Positions 1 through 7,797 of a stretch of 39,455 nucleotides of DNA are shown here, piece after piece. The notes under the pieces were generated by a model. That model worked only from the letters and a program-made list of their open reading frames with translations. It did no database searches and had not been told where the DNA came from. How positions within the stretch are numbered: the stretch's first letter is position 1; each line of letters begins with the position of its first letter. The stretch is from positions 1 to 39,455 of IMG/VR virus record IMGVR_UViG_3300047095_000688. One strand, written 5' to 3'. The DNA is from a virus. A program made the translations under genes and the position numbers.

Positions 1-161
1 CGGCTTTCGCCAGTATTGTATCGTTGCCCACTACCCAGCCATAGACAAACTATGGACGTAAAAAAACCACGACTATCGGGCGCGGGGCTATCCGCTTCGA
101 GAGGTGTGTTCAGCACCTGAGCGAAAGGATAATCCCGATTAAGTACGGTTGTCAAATTCAT
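1..161 (-). CDS. Partial leftward ORF at the window edge, function unknown
   Basis: An ATG at 161 follows a purine-rich ribosome-binding stretch (GAGAGAAG) at good spacing and opens a frame that runs off the left edge. The visible N-terminus begins MNLTTVLNRDYPF and shows no recognised domain. The start touches the stop of a five-codon ORF (ATG 176, TAA 164-162), so translation may be coupled to upstream ORFs. It is the last visible gene of the leftward early operon. A run of seven T lies inside it, and the frame beyond the run reads oddly while another frame there reads like protein (VYGWVVGNDTILAKA). A frameshift or sequencing slip is therefore possible. Function cannot be assigned. Confidence 0.45.
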   Translation of the reverse strand, partial: MNLTTVLNRDYPFAQVLNTPLEADSPAPDSRGFFTSIVCLWLGSGQRYNTGES

Positions 162-178
162 TTATTCTTCTCTCATGA

Positions 179-5979: not shown

Positions 5980-6447
5980 ATGAAAGACAGATTGAGGACG
6001 ATCAAACAGGATTACCGGGCGCTATTTTTGGCGCTCCAGGCCGATGCAAAAAAATACCCCGGCGGAATCCGAGCGCTGGCTGAAATTATCGGCGTTAATG
6101 GAACAACGCTGGCTAATAACCTGAACCCGGATCACGAGGCATCGCCGCCATCGTTTGCGACGGTACTTGAAGTAATCAATCACGCGCAGGCCAAGTCGGC
6201 TGTTTACACGATAGCCAACCTTGTCGGCCAAGTGCCGATGGATATTCAGGGCTACTGCGATTACAACGAAAAAGACCAGATCAAGCATTTCCTGGGATTG
6301 GTTTCAAGCGCATCCTTGCTGCTCAATCACGGCTCGGAAGCCGCAAAAGATTTCCGTTTCGATGCGCATGAAAAACAGCAATTGCGGCCGCTCCTAATCG
6401 ATCTGATTAAAACATCGGCGCAACTATTTAGATCGCTGAACGATTAA
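5980..6447 (+). CDS. CII-like phage regulatory protein
   Basis: 155 residues. The pattern ALAEIIGVNGTTLANNLNPDHEASPPSFATVLEVI matches the phage CII/CP76 family, whose N-terminal helix-turn-helix is followed by a long helical region. In related phages these proteins activate lysogeny promoters or modulate early transcription. GAGGAT lies eight bases before the ATG. It is second in the PR operon, the usual cII position. Immediately downstream the structured RNA region begins. Which promoter it activates is not evident. Confidence 0.78.
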   Translation: MKDRLRTIKQDYRALFLALQADAKKYPGGIRALAEIIGVNGTTLANNLNPDHEASPPSFATVLEVINHAQAKSAVYTIANLVGQVPMDIQGYCDYNEKDQIKHFLGLVSSASLLLNHGSEAAKDFRFDAHEKQQLRPLLIDLIKTSAQLFRSLND

Positions 6448-6488
6448 ATGATTAACCATCACTACCTCCCTAGTGAATGCACACCGCA

Positions 6489-6530
6489 GCGACCAACGCA
6501 TAAAGCATCATGCGTAGTTCGGATGGTCGC
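6489..6530 (+). ncRNA. 5' compound hairpin of the structured-RNA region
   Basis: GCGACCA (6489-6495) pairs perfectly with TGGTCGC (6524-6530). Directly stacked inside, ACGCAT (6496-6501) pairs with ATGCGT (6510-6515), leaving an 8-nt 3' internal bulge and an 8-nt loop. Thirteen uninterrupted pairs on the 5' strand are unlikely by chance. It lies between the CII-like gene and the first tRNA, and may be the 5' domain of a larger RNA or a processing element. Confidence 0.6.
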
Positions 6531-6542
6531 AACTATTTTCAT

Positions 6543-6634
6543 GGTCAAGAGGCAAATATTAGATAAGTTGCCCCGGTCTGTAAAACCGGAGTCGTCACGA
6601 ACGGGTGTTGGTGCAATTCCAACCTTGACCACCA
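6543..6634 (+). tRNA. Divergent phage tRNA-Tyr (anticodon GTA)
   Basis: All four stems pair: acceptor GGTCAAG/CTTGACC (7 bp), D stem GCAA/TTGC, anticodon stem CCGGT/ACCGG with loop CTGTAAA (anticodon GTA at 6580-6582), long variable arm of 17 nt with an inner TCG/CGA stem as in class II tRNAs, and T stem GTTGG/CCAAC. Discriminator A and an encoded CCA end the gene. Unusual points: position 8 is A rather than T, the D loop lacks the GG pair, and the T loop is TGCAATT, with G at position 55. The isotype is well supported, but function as a normal elongator tRNA is less sure; it may be a decoy or degenerating copy. Confidence 0.75.
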
Positions 6635-6639
6635 TAAAA

Positions 6640-6719
6640 GCGCTTGTAGCTCAGTTGGTAGAGCCGACGATAGACGTATCGCCAATGTGTCGCTGGTTCG
6701 AGTCCAGCCAAGCGCGCCA
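6640..6719 (+). tRNA. tRNA-like gene with aberrant anticodon arm, isotype undetermined
   Basis: Acceptor GCGCTTG/CAAGCGC (7 bp), TA at positions 8-9, canonical D arm GCTC-AGTTGGTA-GAGC, variable loop GTGTC, T arm GCTGG-TTCGAGT-CCAGC, discriminator G and encoded CCA are all standard. The anticodon region (6665-6686) is about four nucleotides too long and does not make a normal 5-bp stem with a 7-nt loop; the best local fold is CGATA-GACG-TATCG. No anticodon can be assigned safely; a forced fit would give AGA. It starts six bases after the tRNA-Tyr. It may be a tRNA pseudogene, a tRNA-like structure or an edited/inserted anticodon arm. Confidence 0.6.
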
Positions 6720-6757
6720 AAGATTTTTTGTGCCAGCAGCCACCGCTGCAACTCAAT

Positions 6758-6795
6758 GCCAGCAGGTTTTTACCCTTCCTGCTGGCTATTTTTTT
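6758..6795 (+). terminator. Terminator-like hairpin after the tRNA pair
   Basis: GCCAGCAGG (6758-6766) pairs perfectly with CCTGCTGGC (6778-6786), followed by TATTTTTTT. It looks like an intrinsic terminator for the early/tRNA transcript, although replication genes lie downstream, so it must be read through, antiterminated or bypassed by another promoter. Confidence 0.8.
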
Positions 6796-7337
6796 GGAAG
6801 AACTAACAAGAACAGGCTTTGGCGAAACATCAGAACTCACAAGCCGATGCTGCAAAACGCTAGAGCCTGTCCTTGTTGGTTTGATGCACGATGCTGACGT
6901 GCAATGAAAAAGGTTTGCGATAAAGCAAACCAAGCCGAGATCAGCTCCGGCAACCACCGCGTTCCTCCGGCGATACGGAGGGCTAAGAAGGAAGATGCGA
7001 CGTTGATGGAAACGTGTCCGTTTGAAGTTGCAAACAAACGGATGAGGCTGACTAAGAGCATGCGCTAATTATCGATTAAACGCTTCAAGACATGCCGCTA
7101 TCGAACAATCGCGAATAATTTCGATAGTCCTCAGCAAGCTACGGCTTGCCATCTTCCTTGTTAGCAACCGCCGGAATTGTTTGATGGTTTATTACAACGA
7201 ATACGATAAATGGATATGTTGACAAATTACGCTCTCCAGGATTATTCTTTCTCTGCCACGGAAAAAAACGTGGACAGGGGTCGAAGCCTGATTTGGAGCG
7301 GTGAAGAGCCGCAAATTTATTTTGAGCGGCTTTTTTT
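6796..7337 (+). ncRNA. Candidate large structured non-coding RNA (GOLLD/ROOL-like setting)
   Basis: About 540 nt without a credible ORF but dense with perfect helices: a 16-pair stem with one mismatch (6803-6819 with 6863-6879); TGCACG/CGTGCA (6885-6903); GGTTTGC/GCAAACC (6912-6931); GCCG/CGGC (6934-6951); CCTCCG/CGGAGG (6964-6981); ACGTT/AACGT (7000-7015); CCGTTTG/CAAACGG (7018-7041); GCATG/CATGC with inner GCG/CGC (7058-7095); CTATCGAA/TTCGATAG (7098-7127); GCAAGC-TACG-GCTTGC (7134-7149); CCACG/CGTGG (7257-7274), nested in CAGG/CCTG and CGCTC/GAGCG. A long-range helix joins 6982-6997 to 7150-7165 (15 pairs, one G-G mismatch) and encloses five hairpins. It ends at an intrinsic terminator. 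Large ornate RNAs of the GOLLD and ROOL classes are known from phages next to tRNAs; membership here is inference. It may start as far upstream as 6489. Confidence 0.7.
7306..7337 (+). terminator. Strong intrinsic terminator ending the structured RNA
   Basis: AGCCGC (7307-7312) and GCGGCT (7326-7331) form the stem around a 13-nt AT-rich loop, followed by an unbroken T run to 7337. Confidence 0.88.
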
Positions 7338-7360
7338 ATGCGTTGGTGTGCTCAGTTTAT

Positions 7361-7437
7361 GGGTAGCCAAGCAGAGGGAGCCGAAAGGCTCGCCGGTGCT
7401 CCATCGGTCTTCGAACCTCTGCTTTGGTTGCCCACCA
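7361..7437 (+). ncRNA. 77-nt three-way-junction RNA ending in ACCA, in a gene leader
   Basis: A 17-pair stem with one bulged T (7361-7377 with 7416-7433) carries two perfect hairpins: GAGCC-GAAA-GGCTC (7378-7391) and CCGGTG-CTC-CATCGG (7393-7407, one G-U). The strand ends with ACCA, and the element has the length of a tRNA, though the pairing is not a cloverleaf. Two further hairpins follow, CCAGTT/AGCTGG (7435-7450) and GTGATT/AATCAC (7454-7468), before the ribosome-binding site of the next gene. It could be a tRNA-like mimic, a regulatory leader or a second small RNA. Confidence 0.6.
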
Positions 7438-7482
7438 GTTTCGAAGCTGGCGGGTGATTCTCAATCACTAATGGAGCGCATC

Positions 7483-7797
7483 ATGAGAACCAAATCCACA
7501 AGCACGTCCGCAACACTCAAAACACGATTACGCAGCAAATCACTTAGTATCAGCCCCAAAGTAATAGCCAATATCGTTCATCTTTCATATGAGCGCAGAG
7601 AGGCTTCTGCCAAAGAAAAATGGCACACCGCATTGAAGGTGTACATACGTTCTCTAAATAGCCGTGAATTCGATATTGCCAAGCATGTGCTGATGTTTAT
7701 CAGCCAAAAGCCATGTCTTGTTGATCCTGAGTATTCCTGCGAAGTGATTCCTTTTCCTTTAACTGAAGAACATATCGCTGCGGAGGCTTCAAAATGA
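7483..7797 (+). CDS. Phage protein of unknown function after the structured RNA
   Basis: 104 residues from ATG 7483, chosen because GGAG lies six bases upstream; the same frame extends upstream to 7210, but that part crosses the terminator and the hairpins and reads as random sequence. The N-terminus is basic and Ser/Thr-rich (MRTKSTSTSATLKTRLRSKS), followed by helical sequence with PKVIANIVHLSYERREASAKEKW. No family is recognised. Its stop overlaps the next ATG (ATGA), so it starts the replication gene block. Confidence 0.65.
   Translation: MRTKSTSTSATLKTRLRSKSLSISPKVIANIVHLSYERREASAKEKWHTALKVYIRSLNSREFDIAKHVLMFISQKPCLVDPEYSCEVIPFPLTEEHIAAEASK

Follow-up and report, generated by a model that had tools for sequence, protein, structure and literature searches.

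The early region of this phage raises the question of what is encoded between its tRNAs and its replication genes. Large structured RNAs are a known kind of phage product. We know of very few of them, none with a settled function. The material is the IMG/VR virus record IMGVR_UViG_3300047095_000688, analyzed over all of its 39,455 bases and here called the window. A first-pass annotation, made from the letters alone, proposed that 6796-7337 encodes one large RNA in a setting resembling that of the GOLLD and ROOL RNAs, which could be a member of such a class, a divergent relative or an unnamed class. The surroundings are arranged as follows:

5980-6447: CII-like regulator gene (CP76)
6488-6527, + strand: GCGCA..UGCGU-AGUCGGAUGG, a conserved hairpin element of small size, set between the CP76 gene and the tRNAs
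6543-6719, + strand: tRNA-Tyr and tRNA-Ser (ARAGORN)
6758-6796, + strand: hairpin resembling an intrinsic terminator, 3' of the tRNAs and 5' of the RNA (from the sequence)
7483-7797: small gene 3' of the C4 RNA described below, followed by a replication gene and the DnaB helicase gene

Fold and extent of the RNA

Folding of 6796-7337 results in a minimum free energy (MFE) of -196.5 kcal/mol, compared with -147.5 +/- 5.6 kcal/mol for shuffled sequences (z -8.7). When the whole record was scanned in 200-nt pieces, the lowest z of 393 was that of 6801-7000 (z -8.3), level with the piece containing the C4 RNA. The structure that had been described here is thus borne out and exceeds chance. The ORFs that cross the RNA are short, run through the tRNAs and do not keep their reading frames in the homologue described below, in agreement with the earlier statement that there is no credible gene. 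The structural parts are:

6800-6882, + strand: P1, a long hairpin with the invariant loop CACAAGCCGATGCTGCAAA (fold and alignment, with a two-sided G-C/A-U change)
6870-6961, + strand: core domain, composed of a closing helix (~6877-6881/6952-6956), P2, a variable P3 and a last hairpin (covariance model match)
6885-6903, + strand: P2, hairpin GCACG-AUGCUGA-CGUGC, family consensus GCGCA-GGCUGA-UGCGC (compensatory pairs)
6912-6931, + strand: P3, a lineage-specific hairpin within the core's variable part (stem of 7 pairs in the MFE fold)
6934-6951, + strand: last hairpin, GCCGAGAUCAGCUCCGGC, in the family GCCGGAGAUCAGCACCGGC (GAUCAG..CCGG conserved in the window, the homologue and phage members)
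6964-6981, + strand: hairpin CCUCCG..CGGAGG (sequence; CCUGCC..GGCAGG in the homologue)
6982-7165, + strand: 3' domain, with the long-range helix 6982-6997/7150-7165 as its closing stem (compensatory double changes in the homologue)

The long-range helix is exactly as had been described: it consists of 15 pairs interrupted by a single G-G mismatch, and the predicted ensemble gives these pairs probabilities of 0.98-1.0. In the window the MFE fold prefers an extended P1. This takes up bases of the closing helix 6877-6881/6952-6956, whose pairing is also possible; the two are therefore mutually exclusive alternatives.

The same RNA was found in G036, a genome of the family Nitrosomonadaceae (contig 216), where the RNA is 86% identical at the ends (over 6733-6887 at the 5' side) and has diverged freely between them. 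The G036 copy folds independently into the same arrangement. The alignment of homologues that the first-pass annotation had proposed shows compensatory changes in several helices: three pairs of P2, the last pair of P1, the hairpin 6964-6981 and the hairpin 7000-7015. In the long-range helix, which is kept, two pairs are changed on both sides and one G-C pair is replaced by G-U. A second long-range pairing had been suggested between CTAACAAG (6803-6810) and CTTGTTAG (7157-7164); these segments are indeed complementary, but only 6 of the 8 pairs are retained in G036, and conservation of this pairing is unsupported. Taken together, the fold z-scores and the compensatory changes in G036 show that ~6800-7173 encodes a conserved structured RNA with a modelled length of ~374 nt, shorter than the ~540-890 nt that had been expected.

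The terminator-like hairpin 6758-6796 is also kept in G036, where the alignment shows the compensatory change CCAGCAGG to CCAGCGGG. No clear promoter was found between this hairpin and the RNA. Since a terminator lies directly 5' of the RNA, either read-through, antitermination or an undetected promoter must be assumed. G036 carries no tRNAs at this place (as seen at locus L033) and has an sRNA-Xcc1 where the window has its C4 RNA, which indicates that neither neighbour is part of the RNA.

An immunity module downstream

The strong terminator near 7337 had been taken as the 3' end of the large RNA. Our analysis assigns it to a separate unit:

7219-7248, + strand: sigma-70-like promoter TTGACA-18-TATTCT, assigned to the isrK/C4 unit (kept in G036 by alignment)
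7255-7336, + strand: isrK-like/C4-target leader, ending in the terminator near 7337 (Rfam RF01394 and DNA matches)
7355-7439, + strand: C4 antisense RNA (immunity), RF01695 with 53.7 bits against a cut-off of 45

The leader scores 31 bits with RF01394 (E 1.3e-4), below the cut-off of 50, and has DNA matches to family loci in which both isrK and c4-a1b1 pass their cut-offs (relatives L034, L036 and L042); the name isrK-like thus refers only to its position and homology. Both C4 RNA and IsrK belong to the known regulatory RNAs of phages (PMC2864571; PMC4825925). The pair of isrK-like leader and C4 is found again in many Nitrosomonadaceae genomes, there unaccompanied by the large RNA, and it differs from the large RNA in having its own promoter-like site and its own families, and in being dispensable to other members of the family described next, even though both are phage RNAs and the module lies directly 3' of the RNA in this phage. 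The interval 6796-7337 therefore joins two things, the large RNA and a part of a separate, known immunity module.

A phage RNA family without an Rfam entry

Is this RNA peculiar to two Nitrosomonadaceae elements, or does it belong to a wider family? Blastn with the whole region against phages, plasmids and E. coli returned tRNA matches only, and exact DNA patterns (the P1 loop, the P1 3' arm and GGGCTAAGAAGGAAG) gave only chance matches in IMG/VR. R1, a model of P1 and P2, found G036 only among 125 Nitrosomonadaceae and 399 genomes of the same order, as its strict filter hid divergent members. When applied to loci with C4 or Xcc1 it gave one divergent match (locus L055 of genome G033) and none in 58 others, so that C4 is not regularly accompanied by the RNA.

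The family was reached by searching outward from divergent matches, followed by blastn with members. Its core consists of a sequence-variable closing helix, the hairpin AAUGCGC-AGGCUGA-UGCGC, a variable stretch and the hairpin GCCGG-AGAUCAGCA-CCGGC, and both hairpins are near-invariant. Blastn with members leads to PY54, PAJU2, phiEt88, CSP3, EPP-1 and the Pantoea phage PA-1. With PAJU2 as the query, D3 and many Pseudomonas phages are matched, and with phiEt88 as the query 175 phage records are matched, including HK620, HK633, mEp460, several Klebsiella phages and the BASEL phages Bas77-80. The same phiEt88 query finds the family in 1035 of 5426 complete E. coli genomes, at 1224 places, 250 of them on plasmids. 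The phage total is thus at least 175 records, and both the phage and the E. coli counts are of blastn pieces over the conserved core, with structure not checked record by record. The family is not rare, being present without annotation in such classical laboratory phages as HK620, D3 and PY54 as well as in E. coli, and this wide occurrence makes studies of expression, deletion and partners feasible at once in ordinary laboratory strains.

In order to place the window, we used R2, a covariance model of 15 members from which the window and G036 were left out. It matches G036 with 48.6 bits (E 4.4e-10) and finds the exact place in the window, 6870-6961, with 17.5 bits (E 0.018); as the latter score is weak, membership of the window rests partly on G036. 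Divergent copies in G054 and G033 are also matched (E 0.03-0.05). With strict filters, in which weak matches are lost, R2 has hits in 9 of 398 sampled Pseudomonadota genomes and in 9 of 125 Nitrosomonadaceae genomes. The R2 alignment shows family features in the window, namely P2 with a GGCUGA-type loop (AUGCUGA) and the last hairpin with GAUCAG. P3 is not conserved across the family. P1 stems equivalent to that of the window are located upstream of the core in phiEt88, IME207, mEp460 and G097, and end directly before the closing helix. The 3' long-range domain has so far been seen in the window and G036 only. Judged from these sequence comparisons, the window core belongs to a widespread phage RNA family, and the long-range domain of this Nitrosomonadaceae phage would be an example of a lineage-specific ornate domain.

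Rfam 15, searched with the window and its relatives, contains no family for this core, so that of the three options offered earlier the unnamed class was the right one. The resemblance to GOLLD and ROOL is not supported: their covariance models gave no match at E <= 5 in 6400-7500 with permissive filters, none at gathering score across the window and none in the relatives at E <= 1. All of these RNAs are borne by phages or prophages, have an elaborate conserved fold, have no assigned function and are sometimes found beside tRNAs, as described for both GOLLD and ROOL (PMC12286853). Yet many GOLLD members exceed 800 nt (PMC12286853), compared with a family core of ~100-150 nt plus variable additions (374 nt here), and the core has a simpler architecture and a near-invariant sequence of its own that differs from the conserved sequences of GOLLD and ROOL. 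That the RNA is a divergent form of either is very improbable. The family was not found in the open-access papers searched, including searches with a conserved 20-mer and for an HK620 non-coding RNA; supplements such as those of PMC8040213 may hold it as an unnamed candidate.

Covariation and the nature of the structured element

In an alignment of 15 members (A5), two-sided changes occur in 15 cells where 4.1 are expected, a number reached in 0 of 500 shuffles. With 27 members (A6) they occur at 14 of 19 pairs, including four of the five pairs of P2. The A6 covariation score is 0.296, against 0.098 +/- 0.012 in shuffles (0 of 500), and drops to 0.025-0.113 in a control where the partners are slid by 1-3 columns. 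Since A6 was fitted to the structure and its sequences are related, these figures are strong indications and not probabilities.

The changes are almost all from one Watson-Crick pair to another, and of the ~471 paired cells in A6 only 7 hold G-U. This is low for an RNA and leaves room for a role at the DNA level. The element might then be a structured single-stranded DNA serving as a site of priming, packaging or recombination, an idea for which the STAXI motif near C4 RNAs is a precedent (PMC2864571) and with which the position of the CSP3 copy, ahead of a gene for a single-stranded-DNA-binding protein, would agree. STAXI, a candidate ssDNA structure, resembles our element in being structured and occasionally near C4; it does not appear among the Rfam matches here. 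However, at the loci examined the element is co-oriented with the adjacent tRNAs or accessory genes, and in the window the large, RNA-like, lineage-specific domain folds at z < -8 on this strand. We regard a DNA structure as improbable and retain an RNA as the preferred reading.

Genomic settings and proposed function

The members are found in very different places. In HK620 the element is flanked by the annotated pR'/qut on one side and the late terminator on the other. In PAJU2 and phiEt88 it directly follows Q, in PY54 it lies between the DNA methylase and lysis genes, and in mEp460 and one E. coli prophage between the repressor and yfdP. The members of D3, Bas80, phiEt88 and IME207 adjoin tRNAs, that of the window lies beside C4, and that of CSP3 precedes the single-stranded-DNA-binding protein gene mentioned above.

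One possible option is that the element acts in cis, as a leader or attenuation element that governs read-through into the following genes (a late leader or an antitermination site), much like an enlarged lambda 6S leader. HK620, HK633, PAJU2 and phiEt88 have their members downstream of Q, where the lambda 6S/late pR' leader also lies, and the bases shared by P1 and the closing helix in the window would permit a switch. Unlike that leader, many members (those beside C4, those in regions of tail genes or tRNAs, and those flanked by repressor and yfdP) are far from Q and the late promoters, the family has a strong conserved fold of its own, and the downstream genes have nothing in common. Such a role is unlikely, as the variation of settings and of downstream genes argues against control of one next gene and for an action in trans.

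The tRNAs deserve similar attention, since large phage RNAs were said to lie beside them, as here. This stands insofar as the window has two tRNAs and 6 of 20 family members examined have one within 2 kb; it fails in G036, the closest homologue, which has none, and in the window itself a terminator separates the tRNAs from the RNA. The element could be degenerate debris of a tRNA array, well folded by descent and functionless; several members adjoin tRNAs, and CSP3, EPP-1 and Magnus have hairpins resembling T-arms close to the core. But few members have such hairpins, and near-invariant loops and compensatory changes are maintained across distant phages, which makes this origin most unlikely. 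Mimicry of tRNA as a general feature was also considered and dropped, the T-arm-like hairpins outside true tRNAs being limited to these three members.

A mechanism that would fit the settings is that of an accessory, trans-acting phage RNA with a conserved core, and we consider it reasonably probable. The RNA would be transcribed together with tRNA genes or with early or late leader genes. Its two hairpins, AAUGCGC-AGGCUGA-UGCGC and GCCGG-AGAUCAGCA-CCGGC, joined by a closing helix whose sequence is free to vary, would form a fixed platform that serves one host factor common to Pseudomonadota; the 3' long-range domain, like the variable inserts, would be a lineage-specific addition. Like other ornate RNAs of phages, for which this has been proposed, it would act during infection; it would not be a switch that controls the next gene. 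The near-invariant loops, together with the independence from neighbouring genes, point to one conserved target. More tentatively, the family may be an undescribed mobile class of phage RNA, one that has spread through phages of Pseudomonadota, among them Lederbergvirus, Hendrixvirinae, Detrevirus and Ackermannviridae, and through the prophages of roughly one in five complete E. coli genomes. During infection its members would act in trans on a host target that is conserved, and they would carry ornate domains specific to their lineage.

Further observations on the locus

The small hairpin element 6488-6527 aligns between the window, G036 and locus L009, and is also present at the prophage loci L040 and L058. 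It has no Rfam family and is possibly a short RNA or an antitermination site. The slot between this element and the terminator holds tRNA-Tyr and tRNA-Ser in the window, a single tRNA-Leu at L009 (5560-5634) and no tRNA in G036, and appears to be a hot spot of tRNA exchange.

One further feature lies between the RNA and the isrK-like leader:

7192-7230, + strand: mini-ORF MVYYNEYDKWIC* (sequence, compared with the ORF start at L009 5770)

This mini-ORF looks like a phage DNA methyltransferase cut off within its N-terminus; the methyltransferase gene is intact at the corresponding place of L009, and the mini-ORF is perhaps a leftover of such a gene that was replaced in the window. At the start of the window, positions 1-165 (minus strand) match the leader and sRNA-Xcc1 region of G036 in reverse with 81% identity, and seem to be a cut second immunity-type RNA upstream of a DUF4942 gene.

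Related immunity loci have further elements. The Nitrosomonadaceae prophage locus L055 contains tandem C4 RNAs (1382-1466 and 1615-1699, with 41.7 and 64.3 bits), and L040 appears similar. An element of ~100 nt at L055 1273-1375, with a terminator at its end, is repeated in several Nitrosomonadaceae genomes. At L011 (3950-4045), two copies of the 28-base repeat ACAACCCCCCGCGCGAGGGGCTACACCG are located just upstream of a C4 RNA, an arrangement that resembles a minimal CRISPR array.
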